In this document: one piece after another, positions 13,528 through 60,780 of the stretch | Layout: each line of letters starts with the position of its first letter | Numbering within the stretch: position 1 is the first letter of the stretch | From: Tridacna crocea | Taxonomy: Eukaryota > Mollusca > Bivalvia > Cardiida > Cardiidae | Length of the DNA: 64,000 nt | Assembly: GCA_943736015.1 (NCBI GenBank) | Contig: OX031066.1 | Location: 9,242,245 to 9,306,244, forward strand | Direction: 5' to 3' | Notes under the pieces: model-generated | What the model was told of the DNA's origin: nothing | The model's database searches: none | What the model saw: only the letters and a program-made list of their open reading frames with translations | Program-made: the position numbers and the translations under genes

Positions 13528-15591
13528 TAGCTCACCTGAGCACGAAGTGCTCATGGTGAGCTATTGTGATCGTGCTGTGTCCGTCGTCCGTCGTCCGTCG
13601 TCCGTCGTGCGTCGTGCGGCGTGCGTCGTGCGTCGTCCGTCGTCAACTTTTTACCTTGTGTACGCTCTAGAGGCCACAGTTTTAGTCGGATACTCATGAA
13701 AGTTGGTCAGGATGTTTGTCTCGATGAAATCTCGGACGAGTTCGAAAATGGGTCATGTGGGGTCAAAAACTAGGTCACTAGGTCAAATCTTAGAAAAACC
13801 TTGTGTACGCTCTAGAGGCCACATTTTGAGTCGGATACTCATGAAAGTTGGTCAGGATGTTTGTCTCGATGATATCTCGGACGAGTTCGAAAATGGGTCA
13901 CGTGGGGTCAAAAACTAGGTCACCAGGTCAAATCTTAGAAAAACCTTGTGTACGCTCTAGAGGCCACATTTTGAGTCGGATACTCATGAAAGTTGGTCAG
14001 GATGTTTGTCTGGATGATATCTCGGACGAGTTCGAAAATGGGTCATGTGGGGTCAAAAACTAGGTCACCAGGTCAAATCTTAGAAAAACCTTTTGTACGC
14101 TCTAGAGGCCACATTTTCAGTCGGATACTCATGAAAGTTGGTCAGGATGTTTGTCTGGATGATATCTCGGACGAGTTCGAAAATGGGTCACGTGGGGTCA
14201 AAAACTAGGTCACCAGGTCAAATCTTAGAAAAACCTTTTGTACGCTCTAGAGGCCACATTTTCAGTCGGATACTCATGAAAGTTGGTCAGGATCTTTGTC
14301 TGGATGATATCTCGGACGAGTTTGAAAATGGGTCACGTGGGGTCAAAAACTAGGTCACCAGGTCAAATCTTAGAAAAACCTTTTGTACGCTCTAGAGGCC
14401 ACATTTTCAGTCGGATACTCATGAAAGTTGGTCAGGATGTTTGTCTGGATGATATCTCGGACGAGTTCGAAAATGGGTCACGTGGGGTCAAAAACTAGGT
14501 CACCAGGTCAAATCTTAGAAAAACCTTTTGTACGCTCTAGAGGCCACATTTTCAGTCGGATACTCATGAAAGTTGGTCAGGATGTTTGTCTGGATGATAT
14601 CTCGGACGAGTTTGAAAATGGGTCACGTGGGGTCAAAAACTAGGTCACTAGGTCAAATGTTAGAAAAACCTTTTGTACGCTCTAGAGGCCACATTTTCAG
14701 TTGGATACTCATGAAAGTTGGTCAGGATATTTGTCTGGATGATATCTCGGACAAGATCGAAAATGGGTCATGTGGGGTCAAAAACTAGGTCACTAGGTCA
14801 AATGTTAGAAAAACCTTTTGTAGGCTCTAAAGGCCACATTTTCAGTCCGAAACTCTTGTAAGTTGGTCAGAATGTTTGTCTTGATGATATCTCAGACAGG
14901 TTTGAAAATGGGTCATTGGGGGTTAAAAACTAGGTCACCAGGTCAAATCTTAGAAAAACCTTGTATATGCTCTGGATGCCACATTTTCAGTCCAACACTC
15001 TTGAAAATTAGTCAGAATGTTTGCCTTTATAATATCTTGGATGAGTTTGAAAATGGGTCATGTTGGGTCAAAAACTGGGTCAATAGGTCAAATGTTATAA
15101 ACACCTTTTGTATGCTCTGGAGGACACATTTTCAGTCTGATACTCCTAAAACTTGTTCATAATATTTGTCCTGGTGATACCTTGAATGAGATTGAAAATG
15201 GGTCATGTGGAGTCAAAAACTAGGTCAATGGGTCAAATATTAGAAAAACCTTGTGTACACTCTAGAGGCTACATTTTCTGCCTGATATTCTTCAGACTTG
15301 GTCAGAATGTTTGTTTTGGTGATGTCTCAAAAGAGTTTGATAATGGGAAATTGTCGGGTCCAAAACTAGGTCACTTGATGAAATCTTAGAAAAACCTTTT
15401 GTACACTGTAGAGGCCACATTTTCAGTCCAATACTCATGAAACTTGGCCAGAATGTTTGTCTTATTGATATCTCAAAAGTGTTTGATGATGGGTAATGTC
15501 TGATAAAAAACTAGGTCACTGGGAAACTAGATGGTGCATGTTTGGTCAATAAACTCAGGTGAGCGATTTCAGGGCCATCATGGCCCTCTTG
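13528..15591 (+). mobile_element. HINE-like element H1 with 145-bp minisatellite
   Basis: The 5' end is the palindrome TAGCTCACCTGAGCACGAAG with its complement, followed by a run of CGTCCGT and CGTGCGT units. The interior is a tandem array. The 3' end has CTCAGGTGAGC, complementary to the 5' end, then the hairpin AGGGCCATCATGGCCCT and CTTG. These parts match the published description of Helentron-associated elements: subterminal inverted repeats, internal minisatellite, terminal hairpin, T-T insertion. Insertion inside a MITE gives the boundaries directly. No protein is encoded; the helicase would have to be supplied elsewhere. Confidence 0.78.
13655..15530 (+). repeat. 145-bp tandem array, about 13 units
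   Basis: Units repeat every 145 bases and are marked by CTCTAGAGGCCACATTTT and GGATACTCATGAAAGTTGG. The first eight or so are almost identical; those from about 14,815 onward diverge strongly and lose CpG-containing positions. Since 145 is not a multiple of 3, each unit opens a frame of about 71 codons that shifts in the next unit; these frames are artefacts. Each good unit carries four PuGGTCA half-sites. Confidence 0.92.
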
Positions 15592-15784
15592 TTTGCCGTT
15601 TGGTAAAGAATTAATTACACAAAATAACTGGGTCACTAGTAGTACAATGAAACATGATAGAGAGTCAGAAAATGCAGCGGAAGTATACAGTGTGAGAGAG
15701 CGAGTATAATACCTGATCTAGATAGAGAGAGACAGAGACAGAGAGAGGAGACAGACATAGAAAGACACAAAAGGCTGGAGAAAG

Positions 15785-15831
15785 ACATCTGATGGTTCTA
15801 AAAACCATTATGTGACATGAACAATATTCAT

Positions 15832-15876
<45 letters not shown>

Positions 15877-20198: not shown

Positions 20199-22333
20199 TA
20201 GCTCACCTTAGCACAAAGTGCTAAAGGTGAGCTATTGTGATTGCCCTATGTCTGTCATCTGTCGTCCATCAACAATTTCTTTAAACATCTTCTTGTCCTA
20301 AATCACTGGGCCAATCTTCATGAAACTTGGCAGGAATGTTCCTTGGGTGAAGCTCTACCAAAATGTTCAAAGAATTGAATTTCACCCATAACTCTGGTTA
20401 CCATGGCAACAAAAAGAAAAAACAAACAAAATCTTTGAAAATCATCTTCTCTGAAACTAGAAGGCGTAGAGCTTTGATATTTGATATGTGGCATCTCCTA
20501 ATGGACCTCTACCAAGTGTGTTCAAATTATGCCCTAAGGGTCAAAACTGGCCCCACCCCTGTGGAGAATTTGTTTGAGTATAGGAACAAAGAACGAAAAC
20601 TTTGAAAATCTTCTCCTCTGAAACTTGAAGGCATAGAGCTTTGATGTTTGGTATATAGTATCTCCTAGTGGACTCCTACCAAGTTTGTTCAAATTATGCC
20701 CCTGGGGTCAAAACTGGCCCCATCCCGGGGGTCACAAGTTTGAGCGTAGGAACAAAGAAAGAAAACTTTAAAAATCTTCTCCTCTGAAACTTGTAGGCGT
20801 AGACCTTTAATATTTAGTATGTGGCATCTCCTAGTGGACCTCTACCTAGTTTGTTCAAATTATGCCCCTGGGGTCAAGACTGGTCCCGCGCCCAGGGGTC
20901 ACAAATTTGAGCATAGGAACAAAGAATGAAAACTTTAAAAATCTTCTCCTTTGAAACTTGAAGGGGTAGAGCTTTGAAATTTAGTATGTGGCATCTCCTA
21001 GTGAACCTCTACCAAGTTTGTTCAAATTATGCCCCTGGGGTTAAAACTAGCCCAACCCTGGGGGTCACAAGTTCGAGCATAGGAACATCAAAAGAAAACT
21101 TTTAAAATCTTCTCCTCTGAAATTCGAAGGCATAGTAGAGCTTTGATATTTAGTATGTGACATCTTCTAGTGAACTTCTACCAAGTTTCTTCAAATTATA
21201 CCCCTGGGGTCAAAACTGGCCTCATCCTGGTGGTCACCAGTTCAAACATAGGAACAAAGAAAGAAAACTTTAAAATTCTTTTCCTCAGAAACTGGAAAGC
21301 GTAGAGCTTTTATATTTTGTCTGTTGCACCTCCTAGTGGACCTTTACCTAGTTTGTACAAATGATGTCCCTGGGGTAAAAACTGGCCCCACCCCGGGAGT
21401 CACTAGTTTGAGCAGTTAGGAACAAAGTAGGAAAACTTTAAATTCTTCTCCTCTGAAACTAGATGTCGTAGAGCTTTGACATTTGGTATGTGGCATCTCG
21501 TAATGGACCTGTACCTAGTTTGTTTAAATCATGCCTGTGGGGTCAAAACTGGCCCCACCCTGGGGGTAACAAGTTTGAGCATCTAGGAACAAAGAAAGAA
21601 AATTTTAAAATTCTTCATCTCTAAAACTAGAATGCATAGAGCTATGATATTTGGCATGTAGCAATTCCTAGTGGCCCGCTAACAAATTGGTTCATAACTG
21701 GCCCTACTCTGTGGGGTCACAGGTTTGAACATAACAACAAAGAAGGAAAACTTTAAAAATCTTCTTATCTGAAACTTGAAGGTGCAGAGCTTTGATATTT
21801 GGTATGCCGAATCTTCTAGCGGACCTCTACCAAGTTTGGTCATATGACGTCCTTGGCGTCAAAACTGGCCATGCCCCGGAAGTCACAGGTTGGAAAACAG
21901 GAACAAAGAAGGAAATTTTAAATTTCTTTTTCTATTAAACGGGAAGGTGTAGAGCTTTGATATTTGGTATGTAGCATCTTTGAGTAGACCTCTGCCAAGT
22001 TTGTTCCAAGGATGCTGCTTTGGTTAAAACTGACCCAGCCCCGCGTACCACAGGTTTGAACATCGGACTAAGAAGGAAAATTAAAAATTCTTCTTTGAAA
22101 CTGGAAGGTTTAGAGCTTTGATATTTGATTGCCCTATGTCTGGTGTCTGTCGCCTGTCGTTCATCAACAGTTTCTTTAAACATCTTCCTCTCCTAACCAA
22201 CTGGGCCAATCTTGATGAAATTTGGCAGTGATGTTCCTTGGGTGAAGCTATACCAAAGATGTTCAAAGAATTGAATTTCACGTATAATGAGCTATAGTCT
22301 AAGGTGAGCATTCCAGGGCCAATGGCCCTTTTG
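20199..22333 (+). mobile_element. HINE-like element H2 with about 170-bp repeats
   Basis: The 5' end is TAGCTCACCTTAGCACAAAG and the 3' end is GGTGAGCATTCCAGGGCCAA, the hairpin GGGCCAATGGCCC, then TTTTG. Internal units of about 170 bases carry GAGCTTTGATATTTGG, CTCTACCAAGTTTGTTC and CTGGGGTCAAAACTGGCCCC. Near the 3' end (22,120-22,270) the 5' head sequence is repeated in direct orientation. The copy at 44,480-46,615 shares this feature, defining a subfamily. Confidence 0.8.
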
Positions 22334-22806: not shown

Positions 22807-24014
22807 TAGCTCACCTGAGCACGAAGTGCTCATGATGAGCTTTTGTGATCGCCCAATGTCCCTCGTGCATCGTCCAACATCCACAATTTCTTTCAACCTC
22901 TTCTATTCCTAAACCACTGGGCTTATCTTGATGAAACTTGGCACGGATGTTCCTTGTGTGAAGCTCTGCCGAAGTTGTTCAAGAGATTGAATTCCAGCCA
23001 TAACTCTGGTTGCCATAGCAACCAAAAGGAAAAAAAACCAGCAAAATCTTTGAAAATCTTCTTCTCTGAAATTAAAAAGCATAGAGCTTTGATATTTGTT
23101 GTATAGCATCTCCTAGTAGACCCCTACAAAGATTGTTCATATGAAGCCCCTGGGGTTGAAACTGGCCCCGCCCTAGGGGTCACAAGTTTGAAACATTGGA
23201 ACAAAGAAGGAAAACTTTAATAATCTTCCTTCTCTGAAACTAGACGGTGCAGGGCTTTGATATTTGGTATGTAGCATCTCCAAGTGGATCTCTACAAAGA
23301 TTCTTTATATGATGCCCCTGGGATCAAAACTGGCCCTGTCCCGGGGGTCACAAGTTTGAAACATAGCAACAAAGAAGTAAAACTTTAAAAATTTTCTTCT
23401 CTGAAAGTAGAAGGTGCAGAGCTTTGATATTTGATATGTAGCATCTCCAAGTGGACCTCTACCAAGTTTTATCAATTGATACCCCTGGGGTCAAAACTGG
23501 CCAGGCCCCGGGGGTCACAAGTGTGAAACATAGGAACAAAGAAGAAAAACTTTAAAATTCTTCTTCTCTGAACTAGATGGTGCAGAGCTTTGATATTTGG
23601 TATGAAGCAAGTCCTAGTGGACCTCTACCAAGATAGTTCATATGATGCCCCTGGGGTCAAAACTGGCCAGGCCCCGGGGGTCACAAGTTTGAAACATAGG
23701 AACAAAGAAGGAAAACTTTAAAATTCTTCTTCTATGAAAGTAGAAGATGCAGAGTTTTGATATTTGGTATGTAGCATCCCTAGTGGACCTCTACCAAGAT
23801 TGTTCATATGATGCCCCTGGGGTCAAAACTGGCCAGGCCCAGGGGGTCACAAGTTTGAAACATAGGAACAAAAGAGGAAAACTTTAAAAATCTTCTCTAA
23901 AAGTACAAGATGCATTTTTCACAGTTACATACCCTGTCAGAATTATTTGACCTTGAACTTTGATATTTGGTATTTATCTTCATTGAGTAATATAGGAAGA
24001 TCATGGCCCTTTTG
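22807..24014 (+). mobile_element. HINE-like element H3
   Basis: It begins TAGCTCACCTGAGCACGAAG and ends GATCATGGCCCTTTTG. The subterminal inverted repeat at the 3' end is decayed. The corresponding arm A position near 19449 carries only the uninterrupted T-rich site, consistent with insertion between T residues and no longer duplication. Confidence 0.8.
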
Positions 24015-24264
24015 TTTTTTTCTTGTATGCTTTCTATAGTCTTTCATAATAGTTCCAATAGTCAAAGTTCTAAGAACCATCCAGTACTCCCATTCCCCAT
24101 CTCCTGCCCAGTTAAGTAGACTTTTTAAATTCTTGTTTATGTTTTTGAATGGTCGGGGAGTTATTTGCCATTTGATTTTCTATATGGTGTGTATGCAAGT
24201 CAGCTGATGGAAGTCATTATCAAGGCTAAAAAGGCAGATTGAAGAGCCTCTGATATGTTCAGGT

Positions 24265-25228
24265 CTTTGTTTACCTCTACCAAGTTTGCTCAAATGATGC
24301 CCCTGGGGTCAAAACTGGCCAGGCCCGGGGGTCACAAGTGTGAAACATAGGAACAAAGAAGGAAAACTTCAAAATTCTTCTTCTCTGAAACTAGATAGTG
24401 CAGAGCTTTGATATTTGTTTTTTAGCATCTCCTAGTGGACCGCTATTAAGATTGTTCATATGATGCCCCTGGGGTCAAAACTGGTCCCGCACCAGGTCCC
24501 AAGTTCGAAACATAAGAACAAAGAAGGAAAACTTTAAAATTCTTCTTCTCTGAAACTAGAAGGTGCAGAGCTTTGATATTTGGTACATAGCATCTCCTAG
24601 TGGACCTCTACCAAGATTATTCATATGATATCCCTGGGGTCAAAACTGGCCAGGCCGCGGGGTCACAATTTTAAAACAGAGAAATAAAAAAGGGAAATTT
24701 AAAATTTTACCTTCTCTGAAACTAGAAGATGTAGAGCTTTGATATTTGGTAAGTAGCATCTCCTAGTGGACTTCTACAGTTTTTGTTCATATTATGTTCC
24801 TGGAGTCAAAACTGGCCCTGCCTCGTGAGTCCGAAGTTCGAAACATAGGAACAAAGAAGGAAAACTTTAAAATTCTTCTTCTCTGAAACTAGAAGGCACA
24901 GAGCTTTGATATTTGGTATGTAGCATCTTGTTATGGACTTCTACAATGTTTCTTCATATGATGCCCCTGGGGTCAAAACTTGCCCTGCCCCAGAGGTCAC
25001 AAGTTTGAAACATAGGAACAAAGAAGGAAAACTTTAAAATTCTACTTCTCTGAAAATAGAAGGTGTAGAGCTTTGATATTTTGTAAGTAGCATCACCTAG
25101 TGGACCTAGTGTCAAGTTTTTTTTTAGGATGCCCCTGGGTTCCAAACTGACCCCGCCCTAGGGGCCACAAGTTTGATTTTACAGCGTAGTACTCAGGTGA
25201 GCGATATAGGACCATCATGGTCCTCTTG
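24265..25228 (+). mobile_element. HINE-like element H4, 5' truncated
   Basis: About five 170-bp units are followed by CTCAGGTGAGCGATATAGG, the hairpin GGACCATCATGGTCC and TCTTG. No TAGCTCACC head is present; the left junction is with arm B sequence near 24,262. Confidence 0.75.
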
Positions 25229-25478: not shown

Positions 25479-25694
25479 GAATGGGATTTTTAGAGTCTGT
25501 TAAAAGGAGAGAAAATAACTAATTTGCTCGTCACAATCTGGAATCACTTTTTTACGTCATTATTTACTTACATGTTTCAAAAAAGTATTTCCTTTCCATC
25601 AAGTAATTTTTTTTAAGTTCTTTTTATATCTTACATGTGTGTAAATAAATTAATAGTAGTGCGCTAAGTCACTTCTTGTTTATCTTTATACCAG

Positions 25695-25878
25695 GTGCTT
25701 GCTGAACAAATTGGCAGTACAAAATTCCGAGACTACAAAGACATAGATAGGTCTGAAGAAGAGCAGCGAAGAGGTATCACAATTAATGCAACACACGTTG
25801 GCTATGAGACTGCAAAGCGACATTATGCCCACACTGACTGTCCAGGCCATCTTGATTTTATTAAAAACATGATAACAG
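25695..25878 (+). CDS. TUFM: Mitochondrial elongation factor Tu, exon 2 of 3 (switch I and G3)
   Basis: This exon encodes residues 79-139 and the first base of codon 140. The acceptor is ATACCAG before GTGCTTGCT. The donor follows ATAACAG and reads gtagat. It carries the G2/switch I motif RGITI (residues 104-108) and the G3 motif DCPGH (126-130) with the catalytic-type His130, followed by KNMITG. The stretch before RGITI reads DRSEEEQR, whereas bacterial and human EF-Tu have a NAPEE-type sequence. DCPGH is followed by LDF instead of the usual ADY. These are real differences from the conserved family but leave the nucleotide-binding residues intact. The codon split after G is completed by GC in exon 3, giving ITGT as expected. 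Confidence 0.92.
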
Positions 25879-26596
25879 GTAGATAAGGGTTATATTTACT
25901 TTTGAAATATTCTTAGAAAAATTTGGCAATCAACCATGCAACTGATTTCAAACTCATTTGAGTAATTTACTTATCACTGTATTACATCAAAATTATTTCA
26001 GTTGTGTTGTAGGTCATGACAGATCACAAAAGCCGTTGTCCAAAGCTATATAATTCTATTTGTAGTTCTAACTGATGGGAGTTCAATAGGTTCTTTTCAT
26101 CTCAGATTCTTTAGAGGTCATGCTGGTATCAATAGTAAAGAGTAAGACTAAAACCTAGCCTCACTGGAAGCACTGATTTTTTCATGGAAATGTCATGAAG
26201 CAAGATGCTTGCCCTGGCCTGTCACTGCTGAAACAGTCATCAGTATGTGAGCTTGTGGCCCTGTCCTTGTGCAGAAATGCCTGAAGTAATATTGAAAGTG
26301 GAATGAAACACCACTCTATCAGTAAACCAAAACTTAATAAACTTGGTACCAACAGAAGTACAGAATGTGCTCTTCTTTGAAACAGAATTTGAACCTTTAC
26401 CAGATGACCAAAGTTTAAGAGTAAAAATCTTCTTCTCTGAAACCACTAGGCCTAGGGCTACCTTATTTGACACATAGCTTTATCTATTTGATAGATCTCT
26501 ACCAAGTCTCTAAAGAATTTTGCGCTGGGGTCAAAATTGGCCCCATTCCTAGGATTACAAGTTTCAAATTAAGCCTGGCTTATATAGGGACTTCAG

Positions 26597-26903: not shown

Positions 26904-28402
26904 TTAACCCTTTCCCAAACAAGCCCTCGTTAGCTCACCTGAGCATGAAGTGCTCATGGTGAGCTTTTGTGATAGCCCAGTGTCTGTCGTCCGTCGTCAG
27001 TCGTCCACAATTTCTTTTAACATCTGCTCCATCTAAACCACTGGGCCGATCTTGATGAAACTTGGCAGGGATGTTCCTTCGGTGAAGCTCTACCAAAGTT
27101 GTTCAAGAAATTGAATTCAAGCCATAACTCTGGTTGCTATGGCAACCAAAAGGAAAAAAAACAAAATCTTTGAATTTTTTTTTTCTCTGAAACTAGAAGG
27201 CGTAGAGCTTTGATATTTGGTATGTAGCATCTCCTAGTGGACCTCAATCGAGAGTGTTCATGTGATGCCCCTGGGGTTAAAACTGGCCCCGCCCTGGGGG
27301 TCACAAGTTTAAAACATTGGAGCAAAGAAGGAAAACTTAGAAAATCTTCTTCTCTGAAACAAGAAGGTGTAGAGCTTTGATATTTGGTATATAGCATCTC
27401 CTAGGGGACCTCTACAAAGATTGTTCATATGGTGCCCCTGGGATCAAACTGACCCTGTCCCGAGGGTCAGAAATTTGAAACAAAGCAACAAAGAAGGAAA
27501 ATTTTAAAATTCTTATTCTCTGAAAGTAGAAGGTTCAGAGCTTTGATATTTGGTATGTAGCATCTCCAAGTGGACGTCTACCAAGATGGTTCATATGATG
27601 CCCCTGGGGGTCAAAACTGGCCCCGCCCCTGGGGTCATAAGTTTGAAACATAGGAATAAAGAAGGAAAACTATAATAATCTTCTTCTCTGAAACTAGAAG
27701 TTGCAGAGCTTGATATTTAGTATGTAGCATCTTCTAGTGGACTTCTACCACGATTGTTCATTTGATACCTCTACCAAGATTGTTCATATGATGCCTTTTG
27801 GATAAAAACTGGCCTGGCCTCAGGGGGCCCCAGGGGTCACAAGTGTGAAACATAGGAACAAAGAAGGAAAACTTTAAAATTCTTCTTCTCTGAAACTAGA
27901 AGGTGCAGAACTTTGATATTTGGTATGTAGCATCTCTTAGTGGATCTGTACCAAGAATGTTCATATGATGTCCCTAGGGTCAAAACTTGCCCGGCCCTGG
28001 AGGTCACAAGTTTGAAACATAGGAACAAAGAAGGAAAACTTTAATATTCTTCCCTAAAAGTAGAAGATGCATTTTGCACAGTTACATACCCTGTTAGAAT
28101 TATTTGACCTTGAACTTTGATATTTGGTATTTAGCTTCATTGTAGACCTTCACTGCATAGTACTCAGGTGAGGCATATAGGACCATCATTTTCCTCTTGT
28201 TTTTTTACTTTTCTGCAGTACAAGGCTTTTGAAAACACTGGGGAAAAGGAGAAATTGCTCGTAATGAGCAATTTCTCCTTTTCCCACAGTGTTTTTTGCC
28301 CATTTGGGGAACTTTCTGCCATTTTTGTCAAATCTGAAATTGTCGTCTGCAAACTCTTTGGATTCGGAAGAGTCTAGAATTTGTCGTTTGCGAAAGGGTT
28401 AA
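26904..28402. mobile_element. TTAA MITE of the CTTTCCCAAAC subfamily, split by H5
   Basis: Left piece 26904-26930 (TTAACCCTTTCCCAAACAAG) and right piece 28200-28402 (ends GCGAAAGGGTTAA) join into one element. The unsplit relative at 37517-37731 shows the same order, including the pre-insertion site TTCTTTTTACATG. The hairpin core is GAGAAATTGCTCGTAATGAG. Confidence 0.85.
26931..28199 (+). mobile_element. HINE-like element H5
   Basis: It begins TAGCTCACCTGAGCATGAAG with the CGTCCGTCGTCAGTCG run and ends CTCAGGTGAGGCATATAGG, a decayed hairpin (ACCATCATTTTCC) and TCTTG. It contains about six 170-bp units. Confidence 0.82.
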
Positions 28403-28886: not shown

Positions 28887-31380
28887 TAAGCTCCACTCGC
28901 TGAAGGCCAGCAAGCTTATGTCATGGCCTGGTGTCCGTCATACATCTGTCCATGTGTGCGTCCGTCCATCTGTGGGTTCACTTTTATTTCAAACATCTCT
29001 GAAACTACCCATCCAATTTTGATAAAACTTCACAGAAGTAATCCTGCCATGGTCCTCTTCAAAACTCCTTGAAAGAATTTTATTCCTTTAAAAACTCTGG
29101 TTGTCATGGCAACAAAACTGAAAAATATTGAAAATTTTTGAAAATTTTCTTCTCTGAAACCATAAGGCCTAGGGCTACCAAATTTGGCATGTAGCCTCAT
29201 CTAGTGGAGGTCTACCAAGTTCTTCAAATAATAGCCCTGGGGTCAAGATTGGCCCGGCACCAGGGATGGCAAGTTTTTTTATGGGCTTATATAGGGAAAA
29301 CTTTAAAATCCTTCTGGTACCTAACCATTGAGCCTAGGGCTACCAAATTTGGCATGTATCTTTATCAAGAGTGCCCAAATGATAGCCAAGGGGTCAAATT
29401 TGGCCCGACCCTGGGGGTCACAATTTTTATTTAGGCTTATATAGGGAAAACTTTTAAATCTTCTCATATCAAGCCATACGGCCTAGGGCTACTCAATTTT
29501 GCATCTAGCCTTATCAAGTGGTTGTCTACCAAAGGTGCCCAAATTATAGCCCTGGGATTAAATTTGGCCTCATCATGGGGGGTCACAAGTTTTACATGGG
29601 CTCATATTGGGAAATTTTAAAAAATCTACTTGTACCTAACCACAAGGCCTATGGCTCCCAAATTTTGCATGTAGCTTTATATAGTAGGTCTCTACAAGGA
29701 GGGCCCAAATTATAGCATTGGGGTCAGGTTTGTTCCCAAACCATGGGTCACAAGTTTTATGTGGGTTTTTGTGGTGAAAACTTTCTAAATCATCTTGTTA
29801 TTAACCATAATAAAAACTAGGCCTACTGAATTTAGGTTTCAGGTTTTACAGGGCCATTTTGTGCTCCCCAAAGGGCGAGCACATAGTCGCCACTTCGTCT
29901 GTCCGTCCGTTCGTCCGTCCGAAGCCATTTCTCCACAACCCTTTGACCAAATTGGATAAAACTTAATATATGTACTCCTTAGGGTAAAGTGACGACTCAT
30001 CTTTCCCGGTTTTTCAATTTGACCCTGTATCATGGAAAAAAGGGGCTTAATGCAAAATTGCAATTTTTACTAATATCTTATTCAGTTTTTGTCAAAATAT
30101 CATGAAACTTCATGGTTATATTGTCTATGGAAAGTTTCAGCATATGCCCTTGCTGTTTTTAATCTACACGTTTTTTATGTTGACGTTCTGTCATGGAAAA
30201 AGGGGCTTTCTTGCAAAATTCCAACTTTTACTAATATCTCATTCAGTTTTTGTCAAAATTTCAGTAAACTTCATGGTTATATTGTTTTTTCAAAGTTTCA
30301 TCAAGTGCTCTTGTTTCTGTATCTCCAAGTTTTTCAATTTGACACTCTGTCATGGAAAAAGGGGGTTTCTTATGAAAAGCCAAGGAAAAAGGAGCCCCAA
30401 TGCAAAATTTGCAATTTTTACCAATATATCATTCAGCTGTTGTCAAACTTTTATGAAACTTCATGGTTAAATCTTGTTTTACAAGTTTCAGCATGTGCCC
30501 TTGTTATTTTCAATCTACGAATTATTAATGTGCAAATACCTATATCCTGGTTTCTCGATTTGCTGCACCACGGAAAAAGGGGACTTCATGGAAAAAATTG
30601 TTTTTCACTAGCACTGCCTACATCGGTGCTCAAAACTTTGTGAAATTTCAAATCTGAACTTGTTGGAAAGTTGCCCAGATACCTTCTCTTACATGACGCC
30701 CTCTTTTTCCGTGACACAGTCTGAATTTCAGGCTGCGTCACGGAAAAAAGGGGGCTTCATGTAAAAAATTGTTTTATGTAATATTTACTATATGACTGCT
30801 CAAAATTTTATGAAATTTTCGAATTTTTAATTATTATTTAAAATGCCACAAACCACACACCTGTTGTATTTATTTCAATGATGCAATATTGTCTTATGGG
30901 AAAAGGGGGCCTATTGTTCTCAACAAGTTTGTGTTGGCTATCTCTAATATAGTAAAATTTTGCCTTTTCACTTCAATTTTTTGGGGGCATGAACAGGACT
31001 TTTTAGGATAAAAGAAGTGAATTTATGTCAGTTTCATATATTTGATGACAAGCACTTGTTCGGGGAGCATAACCGGTCTCTGACGGCTCTTATATTGAGA
31101 AAACTTTGAACATCTTCTTGTTTATAACCACACATTCTCAACCTGTATTATTTGGTATGGGACTTTATCTTGTGGACTTCCGCCAGGATTCCAGTAATTA
31201 TAGCTTTGCGGTCAAAATCGGCTTTGACCCGGGGGTCACAATTTGCTCATAGGATTTCATAGAAAAAAATTGTGTATGTCCTTAAGTTTGAAACCATTTG
31301 GCCAGATATTGTTATGTTTGGCTTGTAGTGTTTTTACTTATTAGCCAGTGGAGCGATAAAGGGCTATAATGGTCCTCTTG
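28887..31380 (+). mobile_element. HINE-like element H6, diverged subfamily, with a nested element
   Basis: The 5' end reads AAGCTCCACTCGCTGAAGGC instead of TAGCTCACC. The interior units carry GGCCTAGGGCTACCAAATTT and GGGGTCAAATTTGGCCC. The 3' end is AGTGGAGCGATAAAGGGCTA then TAATGGTCCTCTTG, so GCTCCACT at the 5' end pairs with AGTGGAGC at the 3' end. The paired ends have co-varied relative to the TAGCTCACC family. It interrupts a MITE: CCTTCATTTT lies before and AATGCAAATGCTTTCAGTTT after. Confidence 0.75.
29870..31091 (+). mobile_element. Nested element of the GCTCCCC family
   Basis: The 5' end is GTGCTCCCCAAAGGGCGAGC and a CCGTCCGT run; the 3' end has GTTCGGGGAGCATAACC and a short CCGGTCTCTGACGG stem. 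Interior units carry AAGCCATTTCTCCACAACCC and CATGGAAAAAGGGGCTT. The GCTCCCC/GGGGAGC pair plays the role of the subterminal inverted repeat. A related element lies at 38566-39940 and a fragment at 48835-49170. Confidence 0.65.
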
Positions 31381-31481
31381 TTTTGAATGCAAATGCTTTC
31401 AGTTTGGACAAAATTAAAATTTCCTCTTGTGGTAAAGATGTAGTGGTAAATGTTTACAACCTTGTATTTCTCATTTTCAAG

Positions 31482-41735: not shown

Positions 41736-41736
41736 T

Positions 41737-44479: not shown

Positions 44480-46615
44480 AGATCCGAATTGGATCAAAAC
44501 TGGCCCCACCCCGGGGGATAACAAGTTTGAGAATAGGAACAAAGAAGGAAAACTTTGAAAATCTTATCCTCTGAAACTTGAAGGCGTAGAGCTTTGATAT
44601 TTGGTATGTAGCATCTCCTAATGGACCTCTACCAAGTTTGTTCAAATTATGCCCCTGGGGTCAAAACTGGCCCCACCCTGACGGTCACAAGTTTGAGCAT
44701 AGGAACAGAAAAGGAAATCTTTAAAAATCTTCTCCTTTGAAAATTGAAGGCATAGAGCTTTGATATTTAGTATGTGGCTTCTCCTAGTGGACCTCTACCA
44801 AGTTTGTCAAATTATGCCCCAGGGGTCAAAACTGGCCCCACCCCAGGAGCCACAAGTTCAAAACATGGGAACAAAAAAGGAAAACTTTAAAAATCGTCTC
44901 CTCTGAAAATTGAAGGCATAGAGCTTTGCTGTTTAGTATGTGGCATCTCATAGTGGACCTCTACCAAGTTTGTTCAAATTATGCCCCTGGGGTCAAAACT
45001 GGCCCCACCCCAGGAGCCACAAGTTTAAAAAATGGGAACAAAGAAGGAAAACTTTGAAAATCTTATTCTCTGAAACTTGAAGGCGTAGAGCTTTGATATT
45101 TGGTATGTAGCATCTCCTAGTGGACCTCTACCAAGTTTGTTCAAAATATGCCCCTGGGGTCAAAACTGGCCCCATCCTGGCGGTCACAAGTTTGAGCATA
45201 GGAACAAAAAAGGAAATCTTTAAAAATCTTCCTCTCTGAAAATTGAAGGCATAGAGCTTTGATATTTAGTATGTGGCTTCTCCTAGTGGACCTCTACTTA
45301 GTTTGTCAAATTATGCCCCAGGGGTCAAAACTGGCCCCACCCCAGGAGCCACAAGTTCAAAACATGGGAACAAAAAAGGAAAACTTTAAAAATCTTCTCC
45401 TCTGAAAATTGAAAGCGTAGAGCTTTGATATTTGGTATGTGGCAACTCCTAGTAGACCTCTACCAAGTTTGTTCAAATTATGCCCCTGGGGCCAAAACTG
45501 GTCCCACCCCGGGGGTCATAAATTTGAGCATAGGAACAAAGAAGGAAAACTTTAAAATTCTTTTCCTCAGAAACTGGATGGCGTAGAGCTTTGATATTTG
45601 GTCTGTTGCATCACCTAGTGGACCTCTACCTAGTTTGTACAAATGATATCCCTGGGGTCAAAACTGGCCCCACCCGGGGGTCACTAGTTCGAGCATAGGA
45701 ACAAAGAAGGAAAACTTTAAATGTCTTTTCCTCTGAGACAAGATGGCATAGAGCTTTGATATTTGGTATGTGGCATCTCCTAGTGGACCTCTACCAAGTT
45801 TATTTAAATCATGCCTATGGGGTCAAAACTGGCCCCACCCCGGGGGTCACAAGTTCAAACATAGGAACAAAGCAAGAAAATCATGAAATTCTTCTTCTCT
45901 AAAACTAGAAAGAACTATGATATTTGGCATGTAGCATTTCCTAGTGGACCTCTACCAAGTTTGTTCATATCATGCTCTTGGGGTCAAAACTGGCCCTGCC
46001 TCGGGGGGTTCACAGGTTCGAACGTAGCAACAAAGAAGGAAAACTTTAGAAATTTCTTCTCTGAAACTTGAAGGTGCAGAGCTTTGATATTTGGCATGCA
46101 GAATCTTCTAGCGGACTTTAGCAAGTTCGGTCATTTGATGTCCCTGGCGTCAAAACTGACCATGCCCCGGAGGTCACAGGTTGGAACATAGGAACAAAGA
46201 ATGAAATTTTTAAATTTCTATTTCTCTTAAACGGGAAGGTGTAGAGCTTTGATATTTGGGATGTAGCATCTTTGAGTGAACTACTACCAAGTTTGCTCCA
46301 AATTTGCTGTTTTGGTCAAAACTGACCCAGCCCCGGGGACCACAAGTTCGAACATAGGACAAAGAAGGAAAATTTAAAAATCTTCTTTGAAACTGGAAGG
46401 TGTAGAGCTTTGATATTTGACTGCACTATGTCCGGCGTCTGTCGCCCGTCGTCCGTCAACAATTTCTTTCAACATCTTCTAACCCACTGGGCCAATCGTG
46501 ATGAAACTTGGCAGGGATGTTCCTTGGATGAAGCTTTACCAAAATTGTTCAAAGAAATAAATTTCACTCATAAGCTATAGTCTAAAGTGAGCGTTCCAGG
46601 GTCACTGTCCTCTTG
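44480..46615 (+). mobile_element. HINE-like element H12, 5' truncated, H2 subfamily
   Basis: It starts within a unit (ATCAAAACTGGCCCCACCCC), continues for about twelve units, repeats the head sequence near 46,430-46,560 and ends AAAGTGAGCGTTCCAGGG, a short stem and CTCTTG. Units around 44,690-45,180 recur at 45,185-45,680, giving a three-unit higher-order repeat of about 495 bases. Confidence 0.75.
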
Positions 46616-46616
46616 T

Positions 46617-47710
46617 TAGCTCACCTGAGCACAAAGTGCTCATGGTGAGCTTTTGTGATTGCCCAATGTCCGTCGTACATGTAAGTCATCCGTCGTGCGT
46701 CATCGTCTGTCGTCCACAATTTCTTTACACATCTTCTCCTCCTAAACCACTGGGCCGATCTTGATGAAACTTTGCAGGGATGTTCCTTCGGTGAAGCTCT
46801 ACCAAAGTTGTTCAAGAGATTGGATTCCAGTTATAACTCTAGTTGCCATGGCAACAAAAAGAAAAAAACAGCAAAATCTTTGAAAATCTTCTTCTCTAAC
46901 ACTAGAAGGCGTAGAGCTTTGATATTTGGTATGTAGCATCTCCTAGTGGACCCCTACCAAGAACTTCATATGATGCCCCTGGGGTCAAAACTGGCCCCGC
47001 CCCGGGGGTCACAAGTTTTAAACATAGGAACAAGGAAGGAAAACTTTAAAAATCTTCTTCTCTGAAACTAGAAGGTGTAGAGCTTTGATATTTAGTTTGT
47101 AGCATCTCCAAGTAGACCTCTACCAAGATTGTTCATATGATGTCCCTGGGGTCAAAACTGGCCCGACCTCGGGGGTCACATGTTTGAAACATAGGAACAA
47201 AGAAGGAAAACTTTAAAAATTCTTCTTCTTTGAAATTAGAGGATGCAAAGTTTTGGTATTTGGTACGTCGCATCTCTTAATGGATCTCTACCAAGAATGT
47301 TCATATGATGCCCCTGGGGTCAAAGCTGGCCCGGCCCCAGGGGTCAGAAGTTTGAAACATAGAAACAAAGAAGGAAAACTCAAAAAATCTTCTCTGAAAC
47401 TAGAGGATGCAAAGTTTTGATATTTTTGGTGTGTAGCATCTCTTAGTGGATCTCTACCAAGAATGTTCATATGATGCCCCAAGGGGTCGAAACTAGCCCA
47501 GCCCCGGGGGTCACAAGTTTGAAACAAAGGAACAGAGAAGGATAACTTTAAAAATCTTCTCCTTAAGTAGAAGATCTACTCATTTTGCAAAATTACATAC
47601 CCTATCAGAATTATTTGACCTTGAACTTTGATATTTGGTATTTATCCTCAGTGTAGACCTTTACAACTAAGTACTCAGGTGAGCGATATAGGACCATCAT
47701 GGTCCTCTTG
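46617..47710 (+). mobile_element. HINE-like element H13, head-to-tail with H12
   Basis: The head TAGCTCACCTGAGCACAAAG follows the CTCTTG of H12 after one T. The tail has CTCAGGTGAGCGATATAGG, the perfect hairpin GGACCATCATGGTCC and TCTTG. Confidence 0.82.
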
Positions 47711-47711: not shown

Positions 47712-49638
47712 TAGCACACCTGAGCACGAAGTGCTTATGGTGGGCTTTTGTGATCAAATGACCGTCGTCCGGTGTGCGTCGTCCGTTGTCCACAATTTCT
47801 TTAAACATCTCCTCCTAAACTACTAGTCCAATCTTGATGAAACTTGGCAAGTATGTTCCTTAGGTGAAGCTCAACCAAAGTTGTTCAAGAGATTGAATTC
47901 CAGTCATAACTATGGTTGCCATGGCAACCAAAAGGGGAAGAAATAGTAAAATCTTTGAAAATCGTCGTCTCTGAAACTAGAAGGCGTAGGGCTTTGATAT
48001 TTTGTATGTAGCATCTCCTAGTGGGCCTCTACCAAGATTGTTCATGTGATGCCCCTGGGGTTAAATGTGGCCCTGCCCCGGCGGTCACAAGATTGAAACA
48101 TAGGAACAAAGAAGGAAACCTTCAAAATTCTTCTTCTCTGAAACTGGAAGGTGCAGAACTTCATTATTTGGTAAGTAGGATCTCCTAGTGGACTTCTACA
48201 ATGTTTGTTCATATGATGTCCCAGGGGTCAAAACTTTCCCTGCCCTGTGGGTCCTAAGTTCGAAACATACATGTAGGAACAAAGAAGGAAAACCTTAAAA
48301 ATATTCTCTGAAACTGGAAGGTGCAGAGCTTTGATATTTGGTATGTAGGATCTCCTAGTGGACCTCTAGCAAGATTGTTCATATGATGCCCTTGGGATCA
48401 AAACTGGCCCCGCCCCGGGGGTCACAAGTTCGAAACATAGGAACAAAGAAGGAAAACTTTAAAAATCTTCTTCTATGAAACAAGAAGGAGTAAACCTTTG
48501 CCATTTGGTGTGTAGCATCTGCTAGTTGACCTCTACCAAGTTTGTTCAAATGATGTCCCTGGGGTCCAAACAGGCCTCGCTCCGGGGATCACAAGTTCGA
48601 AATATAGGAACAAAGAAGGAAAACTTATTTTCTCTGAAACTGGAAGTCACAGAGCTTTGATATTTCATAAATAGCATCTTCTAGTGGACTTCTACCAAAT
48701 ATGATACAATGACCATGGGGTCCAAACTGGCCCCGCCCTGATGGTCACAAGTTTGAACATGGGAACAAAGAAGGAAAACTTTTAAATTCCTCTGTTCTGA
48801 ATGAAGATGGAAACTTCATAGTGTGTTCCCTATGATAGTCTGCCATGTCATTGAAAAAGGGGGCTTGGTGTAAATTTTCACTGTGGACCAATATCTCTTT
48901 CACTTCAGAACCAAATGTAATTAAACTTCATCTTGTTAAGCGATAGACAATAGTTATTTGATTTTATTTCATGAAACAACATGTTATCAAAAAAGGGGAC
49001 TAAATGTATAATTTCATTATTGACCAATTACAGTCAGTTTGCCCATCCATTCACCTTGATGGATATCTTCTAAAGTCCTTGGCATTTATGAAACTTCAAA
49101 CATGTTTTCCTTAAGATAGTCTTTTGATACAATTTTTTTCTGTAAGAAGTGTCACAGAAAAAGGGGTTATCTTTCACATACTAGACTTGTTGAGCCCCGA
49201 TAGATCAGTTAGTATTTTGTGAGCTGTTAGTCTAGGGTTCCCAGTTTGCGCTGGCATGATTATTGTCTCAGCCAACATTCTTTGACATTTGATCAAAATT
49301 ACTGAGACAAGTCTCATTTGTGTCTTACCAATGAGCGAATGATGACCAATGAGCGAATGATGTTTTAATCTGTCATTCGACCACCATTTTGACCAGGAAA
49401 TTAATGCCTGGCCTTCCAAGTTAATTCAATCCCATACCATACAATCCTGACTTTCAATGACCCTGAATAAGAAAGGTTGTGAAAGCATTTTCGGAAAAGA
49501 AGAACATGCTTTTCGCACAGTTACATACCCTGTCAGAATTATTTGGCCTTGAACGTTGATATTTGATATTTATCTTTATTGTAGACTTTTACTGCTAAGT
49601 ACTCAGGTGAGCGATAAAGGACCATCATGGTCCTCTTG
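47712..49638 (+). mobile_element. HINE-like element H14, head-to-tail with H13, internally disrupted
   Basis: The head is TAGCACACCTGAGCACGAAG. Regular units run to about 48,830. Then come a GCTCCCC-family fragment (GAAAAAGGGGGCTT), a weak tRNA-like patch near 49,195-49,270, and a partial MITE (49,420-49,500). Units resume at 49,505 and the standard tail ends at 49,638. Confidence 0.7.
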
Positions 49639-49752: not shown

Positions 49753-51343
49753 TAGCTCACCTGAGCACGAAGTGCTCATGGTGAGCTTTTGTGATCGCCC
49801 AATGTCCGTCGTGCGTCGTCGGTCGTGCGTCGAGCACAATTTCTTAAAACATCATCTCCTCCTAAACCACTGGGCCAATCTTGATAAAACTTGGCAGGCT
49901 TGTTCCTTGGGTGAAGCTCTACCAAAGTTGTTCAAGAGATTGAATTCCATCCATAACTCTGGTTACCATGGCAACCAAAACGAAAAAATAGCAAAATCTT
50001 TGAAAATCTTCTTCTCTAAAACCAGAACGCATAGAGCTTTGAAATTTGGTATGTAGCATCTCCTCGTGAACCTCTACAAAGATTGTTCATATGATGCCCC
50101 TGGACACAAAACTGGCCCTGCCCCGGGGGGTCACAAGTTTGAAACATAGGAACAAAGAAGGAAAACTTTAATTTTTTTCTTCTCTGAAACTAGAAGGTGC
50201 AGAGCTTTGATATTTGGTATGTAGCATCTCCCAGTGGACCTCTACCAAGATTGTTCCCTGGGATCAAAACTGGTCCCCCGTGGGGGTCATAAGATTTAAA
50301 CATAGAAATAAAGAAGGAAAACTTTAAAATTCTTCTTATCTGAAACTAGAAGGTGCAGAGCTTTGATATTTGGTATGTGGCATCTCCCAGTAAACCTCTA
50401 CCAAGGTTTTTCATTTTGTGCCCATGGGGTCAAAACTGACCCCGTCCCGGGGATCACAAGTATGAAACATAGGAACAAAGAAGGAAAACTTTCAAATTCT
50501 TCTTCTCTGAAAGTAGAAGGCGCAGAGCTATGATATTTGGTATGTAGCATCTCCTAGTGGACCTCTGCCAAGATTGTTCATATGATGCCCCTGGGGTCAA
50601 AACTGTCCCCGCCCCGGGGATCACAAGTTTCAAAAATAGAAATAAAGAAGGAAAACTTTGAAATTCTTCTTCTCTAAAACTAGAAGGTGCAGAGCTTTTA
50701 TATTTGGTATGTAGCATCTCCTGGTGGACTCTACCAAGATTGTACATGTGATGTCCCTGGGATCAAAAGTGGCCCCGCCTCGGGGGTCACAAGTTTAAAA
50801 CATAGAAATAAAAAGGAAAGCTGTAAAAGTCTTCTTCTCTGAAACTAGAAGGTGTAGAGTTTTGATATTTGGTATGTAGCATCTCCTAGTGGACCTCTAG
50901 CAAGATTGTTCATATGATGCCCCTGGGGTCAAACGTGGTCCCCCCTGGGGGTCACAAGTTCGAAACATAGGAACAAAGAAGGAAACCTTCAAAATTCTTC
51001 TTCTCTGAAACTAGAAGGTGCAGAGCTTTTGGGTCGAAACCTGCCCCAGGGGTCACAAGTTCGAAACATAGGAACAAAGAAGAAAAACTTTAAAGTTCTT
51101 CTTCTGTGAAACTAGAAGATGTAGAGCTTCGTTATTTGGTAAGTAGGATCTCCTAGTGGACTTCTACAATGTTTGTTCATATGATGTTCCAGGGGTCAAA
51201 ACTAGCATGTCCTAGTGGACCTCTACCAAGTCTTTTCTTAGGATGCCCCTGGGGTGAAAAGTGGCCCCGCCCCCAGGGGTCACAAGTTTGATTTTACAGC
51301 TTAGTACTCAGGTGAGCGATAAAGGACTATCATGGTCCTCTTG
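49753..51343 (+). mobile_element. HINE-like element H15
   Basis: The head TAGCTCACCTGAGCACGAAG, a CGTCGTGCGTCGTCGGTCG run, about eight 170-bp units, and the tail CTCAGGTGAGCGATAAAGG, GGACTATCATGGTCC and TCTTG are all present. It is inserted in the hairpin of a MITE. Confidence 0.82.
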
Positions 51344-54700: not shown

Positions 54701-54798
54701 AGCATTTTACAAACAAGAACACAAATGTAAATGGATGACTAGATTGAAGTTTGAAATAACATGATGCCAAAAAAGAAAAGTCCTTCTTTCTGAATTCA

Positions 54799-57810: not shown

Positions 57811-59050
57811 CTATGACGGAAATATTATTGCGCTAAACTTTATGGCCAAACCTTTGTATTTAGATCTATAAATGAACACATGTCCAGCTTTTGTGTCTGA
57901 ATTTCTCGCATAAATCTATTCATATCAAATGCAAATAGATAGATACTTGTTAAAAGTATTAAAATTCCATTAGGACTATTTGAATGGCGTAGAGTTCAGT
58001 GGTTAAGCCTCCAAGGACAGTTTGAACTCGTTTTAGGACATAATTTTGTATGTTAACTTAAGTCCGCGAAGCTGAGAGCTTCGCTGACTAAAAACGCATG
58101 TAGGTATTTTTATGGTACAGTTATGCAACAAAAAGAACCTCTCATTTGTTAGCTCTTCAGACATAATATTTCTGTAATTGCCAAAAGTTTACCTTATTTC
58201 ATTTTCATAGACTTTTTTGCCACAAGGTTTAACCTCAAGCACACACATGTCTGGTCCTTTGATATCCTTGTTGACCTATCTGTGGCTATGTACCTGTAGG
58301 GTGTTCACAGCGTCAAACATGCAGCATCCTGGAGGCTCGAGTATTTAATAGGTTGAACAAAATACTTTAATCAAAGATATCTGTTGACTGTCGTCTGTAA
58401 ACCCCATGTTGGTTTTGTAATATATAGATATAACCCCTTTGCCACACGATCCTAAGTTTTAACGACTGCCACAAAGGACCTTTTTGAAAACATTGTGGGT
58501 AAAGCAGAAAACACTGGTAACCACCATTTTCTACCACTATTAGTTCTACTCATTCAAAGACAAATGTGGTAATTGCCAAAACACTTACAATCCTACCGAT
58601 CTGCTGTTTGCGTTATTGAAGAGACCATATCCCACCTTGAGACGACCTGCTGATTGCACAATGTGAGGTAAAAACTTGGTCACTGATCAATTTACTTATG
58701 ACACTTGGGGCAACAGTTTTGTCAGCGAATAATGTTGCTATGGCTCGAAAAGGCTACAGTTTCCATTAAAACTCCATGAAGTTTCGCCTTCTGTAATTTC
58801 TAAATTTAAAATTCTAATTTAAAAACTGAGTAAACCTGACTATGGGCTGAAAGCCTGGTCACTTGGCAAGTTTAATTAGAACTAAAATGTAACTGCTTCC
58901 ATATATCAAATCTCAATAAGACTTTATCAGGATTTAGGTTTATGTACGTTTAACTTTCAAAACTCTACTTTATGATATCAAAACTAACATAACTACTTAC
59001 TTTATTGCAAAGATATTTCCTGTGATCTGGTTGAATAACATGCCCCATAC
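57811..59050. other. Stretch without a recognised gene
   Basis: Mostly unique AT-rich DNA with one decayed TTAA MITE near 58,430-58,570 (CCCCTTTGCCACACGATCC, then hairpin remnants). No convincing exon was found. Confidence 0.5.
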
Positions 59051-59151
59051 ATTATTAGTTGTACGGTCAGATGGCATGGGACTTACAAATTTCTTCATGG
59101 CTGTGGCTAGTCAAGTCGCCTTGAGCCGAACTGGAACAAAATATCATTTTT

Positions 59152-60780
59152 TAGCTCACCTGAGCACGAAGTGCGCATGGTGAGCTTTTGTGATCGCCCA
59201 ACGTCCGTCGTGCGTCGTCCGTCGAGCGTCGTCCGTCGTGCACAATTTCTTTAAACATCATCTCCTCCTAAACCACTTGGCCAATCTTGATGAAACTTGG
59301 CAGGGATGTTCCTTGGGTGAAGCTCTACCAAGTTGTTCAAAAGATTGAATTCCACCCATAATTCTGGTCGCCATGGCAACCAAAAGGAAAAAAATAGCAA
59401 AATCTTTGAAAATCTCTGAGACTAGAAGGCGTAGTATCTCCTAGTGAACCTCTACCAAGATTGTTCATATGATGCCCCTGGGGTCAAAATTGGCCCCGCC
59501 TCGGGGGTCACAAGTTTAAAACATAGGAACAAAGAAGGAAAACTTTAAAAACTTTAAAATTCTTCTTCTCTGAAACTAGAAGGTGGAGGACTTTGATATT
59601 TCGTATGTAGCATCTCCTAGTAGACCTCTACCAAGATTATACATTATGATGTCCATCACAAGTTACAAGTTTGAAACATAGAAATAAAGAAGGAAAACTT
59701 TTAAACTCTTCTTTTCTGAAACAAGAAGATGTAGGGCTTTAATATTTAGTATAAAGGAATTCCTAGTGGACTTCTACAATGTTTGTTCATATAATGTCCC
59801 TGGGGTCAAAACTTGCCCTGCCCCGTGGGTCACAAGTTAGAAACATAGGAGCAAAGAAGGGAAACTTTAAAAATCTTCTTCTCTGAAACTGGAAGGAGTA
59901 GAGCTTTGATATTTGGTGTGTAGCATCTCCTAGTAGACCTCTACCAAGTTTGTTCATATGATGCCCCAGTGGTCAAAACTGGCCCTGCCCCAGGGGTTAC
60001 AAGTTTGAACATAGGAACAAAAAAGGAAAACTTTCAAACTATTCTTCTCTGAAACTGGAAGGCTTATAGCTTTGATACTTTGTATGAAGCATCTCTTTGT
60101 AAACCTCTTCCAATTTTGTTCATATTTTGATTCCCCTGGGGTCCAAACTGGCCCCGCTCCGTGTGTCACAAGTTTGAACATGGGGGAAAAAAGGAAAATT
60201 TTAAAATTCTTCTTCTTTGAAACCAGATGTTGTTGAGCTTTGATACTTGGTAAAAAGCATCTCCTAGTGGACCTCTGCCAAGTATATTCATATGATGCCC
60301 CTGGGGTCATAATTGGCCTTTAAACATGAGAACTAATAAGGAAAAAATTTAAAATACTTCTTCTCTGAAACTAGAAAGTGTAGAGCTTTGATACTGGTAT
60401 GTAGCATCTACTAGTGGACCTCTACCAAGTTTGTTCATAAGATGCCCCAGGGGTCAAAACTGGCCCCACCCCGGGGGATCACAAGTTCTAAACATAAGAA
60501 CAAGAACGGAAAACTATAAAATTCTGTGGAGAGCTTTGATATTTGGTATGTCAAATTGACTTGAGACTTGGTGAACATATTTGTTGCATTGCCTGCCCTT
60601 TCCAGCTATTATACCTCCTCGACAATTATTGCTGGTGGGATGGGCAAATGTTGCGACAATTTGCCACTCTTGTATCATTATCATTTGGCCTTGGACCTCA
60701 ATATTTGGTATTTATCTGCATTGTAGACCTTTACTGCTTATTACTCAGGTGAGCGATATAGGACCATCATGGTCCTCTTG
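59152..60780 (+). mobile_element. HINE-like element H16
   Basis: The head TAGCTCACCTGAGCACGAAG, a CGTCCGTCGAGCGTCGTCC run, about seven units, unique sequence at 60,550-60,690, and the standard tail with GGACCATCATGGTCC and TCTTG are present. It abuts a half copy of the palindromic family at 63643. Confidence 0.82.

Follow-up and report, generated by a model that had tools for sequence, protein, structure and literature searches.

Non-autonomous repeats at a Tridacna crocea EF-Tu locus share ends and unit arrays with Helentrons of the same genome and tend to lie on one strand

The window analysed here, 64,000 nucleotides of the Tridacna crocea genome (assembly GCA_943736015.1, contig OX031066.1; G000:C11:9242245-9306244; genome 1.05 Gb in 31 contigs), carries a mitochondrial EF-Tu gene and, within its introns and beyond its coding end, repeats that we identify as Helentron-associated interspersed elements (HINEs). 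Outside the HINE spans, 114 of 128 forward-strand and 111 of 116 reverse-strand open reading frames (ORFs) were scanned with Pfam. The EF-Tu GTP-binding domain is matched by three of the 114, one of which matches EF-Tu domains 2 and 3 as well; one forward-strand ORF has a weak RMP match (E 0.003). None of the 111 matches Pfam at E 0.01. Since the EF-Tu exons lie near 8972, near 25752 and at 31436-32500, five forward-strand elements fall between coding exons in the sense orientation. A relaxed end scan of the window finds 11 5′ ends and 12 3′ ends on the forward strand and one complete element on the reverse strand. With a 13th, diverged forward-strand 3′ end at 44412, 14 elements have at least one family end, 13 on the forward and one on the reverse strand. 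The original count of about 16 copies comes down to these 14 plus one array without ends, and had made no mention of the reverse-strand copy. The features are as follows, H016, H017 and H019 being Helentrons of the same genome that are described below.

941..1171, forward: 230-bp oriented miniature inverted-repeat transposable element (MITE), reference copy of the family that holds the empty sites and serves as orientation control
8768..9049, forward: open frame with the G1 exon of mitochondrial EF-Tu (exon near 8972)
13528..15591, forward: HINE, 12.9 units of 145 bp, both ends, in an EF-Tu intron; empty sites found
20199..22333, forward: HINE, 167-bp units, diverged copy, both ends, in an EF-Tu intron
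22807..25228, forward: HINE, 167-bp units, both ends, 86% identity with H019 in the last 60 bp, in an EF-Tu intron
25668..25883, forward: open frame with the second recognised EF-Tu exon (near 25752)
26931..28199, forward: HINE, 167-bp units, both ends, in an EF-Tu intron; empty sites found
29130..31380, forward: HINE, units mixed (GGCCTAGGGCTACC type followed by two others), 3′ end at 31380, no 5′ end found in the relaxed scan, in an EF-Tu intron
31436..32500, forward: large EF-Tu exon (PF00009, PF03143, PF03144; mitochondrial EF-Tu in PDB, 3.5e-97)
32843..33491, reverse: complete HINE holding 119 bp of the 166-bp GGTCAGATTTTGAAAT-type unit, 83% identity with H017 in the last 60 bp, just beyond the EF-Tu coding end
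33608..36292, forward: HINE, 14 units of 167 bp, both ends; empty sites found
38637..39936, forward: array of 146-bp units, no recognised ends
40067..41735, forward: HINE, 166-bp GGTCAGATTTTGAAAT-type units, 95% identity with H016 in the first 60 bp and 84% with H017 in the last 60 bp
41737..44412, forward: diverged HINE, 166-bp GGTCAGATTTTGAAAT-type units, head to tail with 40067..41735 via one T
44489..46615, forward: HINE, 167-bp units, diverged 3′ end, 5′ end not found
46617..47710, forward: HINE, 167-bp units, identity with H019 98% in the first 60 bp and 92% in the last 60 bp
47712..49638, forward: HINE, 167-bp units, head to tail with 46617..47710
49753..51343, forward: HINE, 167-bp units; empty sites found in the 230-bp MITE
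59152..60780, forward: HINE, 167-bp units, last 60 bp 97% identical to H019

The architecture of a full element, read 5′ to 3′, comprises a palindrome (TAGCTCACCTGAGCAC...GTGCTCATGGTGAGCT), usually a minisatellite of 7-bp GTCCGTC-type units, an array of 145-170-bp units, the subterminal repeat CTCAGGTGAGC, a short hairpin and a terminal CTCTTG, with T-runs on both sides; some copies have diverged. This is the anatomy that had been predicted, and its end motifs occur far above shuffled expectation in the window: 20 matches to the 5′ palindrome TAGCTCACCTGAGC at up to two mismatches (0.14 expected), 23 to CTCAGGTGAGC at up to one mismatch (0.50 expected) and 15 to the 3′ hairpin GGACCATCATGGTCC at up to two mismatches (0.15 expected), part of these matches being one palindrome counted from both strands. 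Folded as single-stranded DNA, three 5′ ends form strong hairpins (z -5.6 to -8.4, equalled by 0 of 200 shuffles), and two 3′ ends form weaker ones (z -2.6 and -2.8, equalled by 3 of 200). The palindromic 5′ subterminal inverted repeat with its complement near the 3′ end, and the hairpin close to the 3′ terminus, are both hallmarks of HINEs. Exact copies are abundant in the genome, with 4,512 of the 3′ hairpin of a first end lineage and 5,365 of the 3′ end of a second (GGGCCATCTTGGCCCTCTTGTT), while the reversed-pattern controls give 0 in each case. Three head-to-tail junctions, CTCTTG-T-TAGC, lie in the window at 41736, 46616 and 47711, and two of them match exactly a junction counted 98 times genome-wide (control 0); these 98 fit either rolling-circle concatemers or insertion into the T-run after another element. 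Canonical Helitrons have 5′ TC and 3′ CTRR ends and an A|T target, and are ruled out by ends of the form TTTTAGCTC...CTCTTG within T-runs. Terminal-inverted-repeat transposons and MITEs have terminal inverted repeats and a fixed-length target duplication; they are ruled out because the inverted repeat here is subterminal at the 3′ end and no target duplication is seen.

Autonomous elements with the same ends exist in the same genome. PF14214 has 32 genome matches, and 17 of the 30 Rep loci read carry in motif 2 the GSP signature or a close variant, which in the accessible part of PMC4067079 marks Helentron Rep, rather than GLP. The sequence VEFQQRGSPHIH is present in Rep of H009, H010, H016, H017, H019 and others. 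Downstream DNA (3-4 kb) was examined at 13 loci whose Rep signature is VEFQ(Q/N)RGSPHIH or a close variant, and at five of them (H010, H016, H017, H019 and H013) it contains the family 3′ end on the coding strand. The 44 kb examined holds four exact 3′ ends, compared with about 0.2 by chance (9,877 genome-wide). Upstream, to 9.5 kb before the Rep match, the family 5′ end is found, on the same strand as the 3′ end, at all four loci searched, giving end-to-end lengths of 16.7 kb for H010 and 15.3 kb for H019 and, with two 5′ ends each, 14.7 or 13.8 kb for H017 and 15.0 or 14.3 kb for H016. The open frames of these four Helentrons run uninterrupted for 2,534-2,728 codons, and no second forward frame of at least 150 codons (such as RPA) is seen between their ends. 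In the Pfam scan, which covered H010, H017 and H019, all three proteins match DUF6570, Helitron_like_N, PIF1 (E 1.6e-25 to 8.1e-23) and, at the C terminus and in frame, the endonuclease Exo_endo_phos (PF03372; 26.8 bits in H010 with a cut-off of 24.5, 24.3 in H017 and 20.1 in H019). Elements with the window ends encode a Helentron-type Rep/helicase/endonuclease and no transposase of another class. Homology between H016 and H017, which lie at different loci, runs from the 5′ end across the array into the ORF and returns in the last 40 bp, with no collinear match across the 150 bp upstream of their 5′ ends.

A subfamily rule given in the accessible part of PMC4067079 groups a HINE with a Helentron at 80% identity or more in the last 60 bp. 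Nine of the 14 window elements reach this level with H019 or H017, and 200 random pairs have a mean of 48% and a maximum of 72%.

Two observations on the Rep proteins stand beside these. Eight loci (L020, L022, L023, L025, L026, L028, L029 and L032) form a second Rep group without the GSP signature, with (Q/Y)EFAKSRGM(I/V)HWHGLCW in its place at the six loci read; some copies are 99.7-100% identical across 645-1,199 amino acids at different loci and therefore may have moved recently. The N-terminal part of the H017 protein (L041:985-3000) matches Pfam Herpes_teg_N (3.8e-9), which we take to be perhaps a protease-like domain.

The sites of insertion carry the same signature in HINEs and Helentrons. 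Joined flanks of 16 end pairs (10 window elements and 6 Helentron end combinations) were used as queries, and independent empty sites are found for six: the window elements at 13528, 26931, 33608 and 49753, H010, and H016 from its upstream 5′ end. Each positive query has 15 to 60 spanning matches, the best at 75-87% identity, to copies of the 230-bp MITE, as assigned from the places of the matches. In the three best alignments per query the flanks restore the MITE, with differences limited to a few extra Ts and ordinary divergence. A MITE restored in this way leaves no indication of target duplication except T; none of three bases or more is seen in these alignments, and insertion is T-rich or at TT, as in HINEs. 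H010 (16.7 kb) and H016 (15.0 kb) each sit in a MITE as a single unit from 5′ end to 3′ end, and in H016 it is the flank of the outer 5′ end that, joined to the 3′ flank, rebuilds it. Another three window queries found chiefly HINE sequence, their own or that of other copies, and gave no empty site, and the remaining queries gave none, one short match for the inner 5′ end of H016 being left uncounted. The MITE itself has a central palindrome of about 68 bp, and an 18-mer of it has 97,522 genome matches.

Several points weigh against this assignment. At eight of the 13 Helentron-type loci the family 3′ end is not found within the 3-4 kb downstream, and the endonuclease exceeds the Pfam cut-off in H010 only, with H017 and H019 below it. 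H016 and H017 have two 5′ ends each for one 3′ end found and so are composite, and the ends of H019 are based on position alone, without an empty site. Five of the 14 window elements fall below 80%, including the 145-bp element; no autonomous partner was found for the 145-bp lineage, and element 13528 is at most 76% identical over its last 60 bp. No transposition has been observed, and rolling-circle movement in trans is deduced from the protein domains and the accessible part of PMC4067079. Nevertheless, the window repeats are HINEs with ends in common with Helentrons, and they are almost certainly non-autonomous partners of the Helentrons of this genome, moved in trans. The predicted rolling-circle, Helentron-associated nature of the repeats is borne out by the same-end Helentrons and the empty sites, and these HINEs are a new example of an already known element type.

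The four unit types that had been named are all present, and the element ending at 31380 adds two more. It had been proposed that one set of ends captures and amplifies different cargo; on this reading the ends would pick up unrelated satellite units from the genome. Several unrelated unit types do occur within related ends, three of them in succession in the element ending at 31380, and the accessible part of PMC7492417 describes an oyster HINE pair with similar flanks and unrelated units. The ends, on the other hand, are several related lineages, and unit type tracks lineage closely. Twenty places were sampled from the first 100 on contig C1 that carry an exact 34-bp 5′ end; 145-bp units are found at 19 of them, and the single one with 167-bp units departs in sequence just inside the palindrome. 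Of 45 5′ ends, these 20 included, 38 fall into three main lineage/unit pairs (20, 10 and 8); the other seven are mostly misplaced or unclassed by a coarse motif rule, which put two 5′ ends of the 161-bp lineage into other classes. The autonomous Helentrons already hold arrays just inside the 5′ end, of a 166-bp GGTCAGATTTTGAAAT unit in H016 and H017, a 167-bp unit in H019 and a 161-bp unit in H010, and all four carry a unit type also present in HINEs of their own end lineage. The window 167-bp arrays are 78-89% identical to the H019 array and the 166-bp arrays 69-82% identical to those of H016 and H017, while the 161-bp unit recurs in a 1.9-kb HINE with H010-like ends (L087:1750-3600). As unit type follows lineage and arrays lie inside Helentrons, the array is a heritable lineage trait rather than cargo of one end set. 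We therefore reject ongoing capture, which is quite improbable; rare capture may have occurred at the founding of lineages.

Two further repeats lie in the window. Units of 31 bp, palindromic (GGGGCCGATTTCTCCGGAGAAATCGGCCCC), with 16-bp half units, occupy 12567-12683 and 16141-16259, flanking element 13528-15591 on each side in mirror-image order. A further 145-bp unit forms two separate two-copy arrays without family ends, at 61179-61462 and 61690-61973.

The near-uniform strand of the window elements has a counterpart elsewhere in the genome. On contig C1, place lists of both 3′ ends and one 5′ end, with same-strand places less than 5 kb apart merged, give 204 elements across 21.7 Mb. With adjacent elements binned by spacing, same-strand pairs number 44 of 49 (5-20 kb), 33 of 42 (20-50 kb), 27 of 41 (50-100 kb), 17 of 38 (100-200 kb) and 15 of 29 (200-500 kb). 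For adjacent pairs at 5-50 kb the agreement is 77 of 91, which 0 of 20,000 strand shuffles reach, and it is as high between lineages (40 of 47) as within them (36 of 43). Over all pairs, agreement declines from 0.90 at 5-20 kb to 0.35-0.37 at 150-300 kb; six flips occur within 20 kb. For the two values at 150-300 kb (34 of 97 and 72 of 195; C1:0-21.7 Mb), which are less than half, we offer no explanation. As a directional control on C1 we used a 40-mer of the 230-bp MITE, leaving out the 18-mer pattern, whose place list is visibly truncated by strand; by our own arithmetic, the density of the HINE lists and of the 40-mer list is close to what their totals predict. Strand agreement between adjacent MITE copies is 33 of 64 across the window and three C1 domains, and 11 of 44 at 5-50 kb on C1 (0.54-10.26 Mb), a stretch in which HINEs reach 37 of 40. 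That 11 of 44 is itself below chance (shuffle mean 23), again with no explanation offered. An asymmetric supply of T-runs was rejected as the cause of the bias in the window, where, with elements masked, 456 runs of T4+ compare with 471 of A4+; the three other domains, unmasked, have some T excess on the element strand, the largest 324 against 245. Neighbouring copies thus tend to lie in the same direction over about 50 kb, perhaps following host genes.

The link with genes was followed in three 20-kb C1 domains, picked for uniform element strand before any gene was known, with 138 of 163 and 134 of 155 domain ORFs scanned. TRAF7 (1.1e-20 against PDB), prominin (4.4e-12) and a PH-domain gene (4.7e-10) are all on the element strand, and no ORF on the opposite strand scores below 1e-3, the best being Frizzled (0.0023). 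Kinase exons on C1 agree for genes at 3 kb and 44 kb from the nearest element and disagree for a single-exon kinase at 14 kb; disagreement is also seen for an RRM exon whose nearest listed element is 28 kb away. Gene and element strand coincide in 5 of 5 cases within 10 kb (one-sided p 0.03) and 6 of 8 within 50 kb. These counts use five of 18 C1 kinase rows (three genes); not used are one at 63 kb, which agrees, and twelve beyond 100 kb (1 agrees, 11 disagree), mostly where the element map is sparse. They also use one of 10 RRM rows; of the nine others, seven lie beyond 100 kb, one lies at 64 kb (agrees) and one is a weak match at 29 kb (E 3e-4, agrees). A forward-strand kinase 32 kb upstream of the first window element also agrees and, belonging to the EF-Tu domain, is not counted; adding this kinase and the weak RRM match would bring the 50-kb count to 8 of 10. 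Three proxies for gene strand were tried and set aside: the 5′ splice pattern CAGGTAAGTA is not above control, a kinase codon pattern is below control, and an EGF codon pattern is above control and too sparse near known elements. In seven of eight 3-kb loci (L001-L008), ORFs on the element strand (65) and the other strand (63) have no match below E 0.007; in L004 no ORF passed the filter. The association of element strand with host-gene transcription is suggestive only.

These features are compatible with the following scheme. Rep would nick at the T preceding the 5′ palindrome, the helicase would peel one strand off, coupled to replication, the 3′ hairpin and CTCTTG would end the copy, and the freed strand would be joined into a T-run. 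HINEs would be shortened Helentrons that keep both ends and the array and move in trans, their arrays lengthening or shortening by slippage or unequal exchange. What sets the strand of insertion may be some local property of the host DNA, with host-gene transcription the most likely candidate.

Among the explanations for the strand domains we tentatively favour guided insertion, itself short of probable: the host would guide the strand, so that lineages share direction in a domain of about 50-100 kb, the T-run being cut on the exposed, most likely non-template, strand and orientation recording past germline transcription or fork direction. Guided insertion fits the preference of the bat Helitron Helraiser for gene bodies and highly expressed genes and the suggestion that negative supercoiling behind the polymerase is the source of single strands, both in the accessible part of PMC4778049. 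Selection ranks next and is somewhat unlikely: antisense insertions would be lost, for instance through their stop, splice or polyadenylation signals. It agrees with the five tested genes within 10 kb, which run in the element direction, whereas poly(A)- and splice-like motifs are not clearly commoner on the antisense strand of five elements. The exact-5′-end list, by sample mostly of the 145-bp lineage, is probably young because its units are 86-98% alike, and it agrees with the strand of lineage B in 22 of 23 cases at 5-50 kb, which also counts against selection.

Replication-fork direction, with single-stranded DNA exposed on the lagging strand, ranks third, and we consider it unlikely. The fading of agreement by about 100 kb, and its drop to less than half at 150-300 kb over all pairs, is on a scale plausible for replicons; the accessible part of PMC4778049 cites a bacterial HUH transposase dependent on replication of the lagging strand. 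The six flips within 20 kb and the 5 of 5 genes within 10 kb nonetheless suit genes better, in small numbers. Very improbable is local multiplication, in which tandem rolling-circle copies or segmental duplications are later split: head-to-tail junctions do occur, but agreement is just as frequent between lineages as within one, and four window elements lie within separate MITE copies. The strand domains raise a testable rule for how rolling-circle transposons choose a strand. Agreement across lineages within about 50 kb is absent from a MITE on the same contig and unexplained by T-run supply in the window. If insertion does follow transcription or forks, the elements would be a natural recorder of germline strand exposure. 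The strand domains look new; no paper that appears to describe strand or orientation bias of Helitrons or Helentrons was found in the library searched, going by titles, the openings of abstracts and the accessible parts of PMC4778049 and PMC13286980.

Among known systems, the comparisons below draw on the accessible parts of the papers cited. Helraiser has a similar 3′ hairpin terminator and a proposed aid from transcription-driven single-stranded DNA (PMC4778049); it differs as a canonical Helitron with TC/CTAG ends, and no gene-relative strand bias was found reported there. HINE-Mo, HINE-Cq and DINE-1 (PMC4067079) share palindromic subterminal inverted repeats, a 3′ stem-loop, a T-rich target, the Rep/helicase/endonuclease Helentron partner with its GSP signature, the 80% rule for the last 60 bp and, in some copies, tandem repeats. 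Unlike in those systems, the HINEs here have arrays of up to 14 units with the same unit types in their partners, and the four Helentrons show no second long forward frame. Pearl elements of oyster and blood ark, cited in PMC7492417, are alike by description, with central repeats of about 160 bp and short end modules. The closest likeness is to Cg_HINE of the Pacific oyster (PMC7492417), by description rather than by sequence: a 5′ subterminal repeat with inverted repeat, a GTCC-type microsatellite, a central array of 140-180-bp units, a 3′ subterminal repeat with palindrome, a TT target without target duplication, and unrelated unit types in similar flanks. That work found 10 autonomous oyster Helentrons that could not be related to Cg_HINEs and left the relation unresolved, and it describes integration in both orientations without chromosomal preference. 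In T. crocea, by contrast, orientation is locally coherent and the autonomous partners share both ends and a satellite-like array with the HINEs, the piece absent from the oyster work; as such, the arrays need not be captured host satellite.

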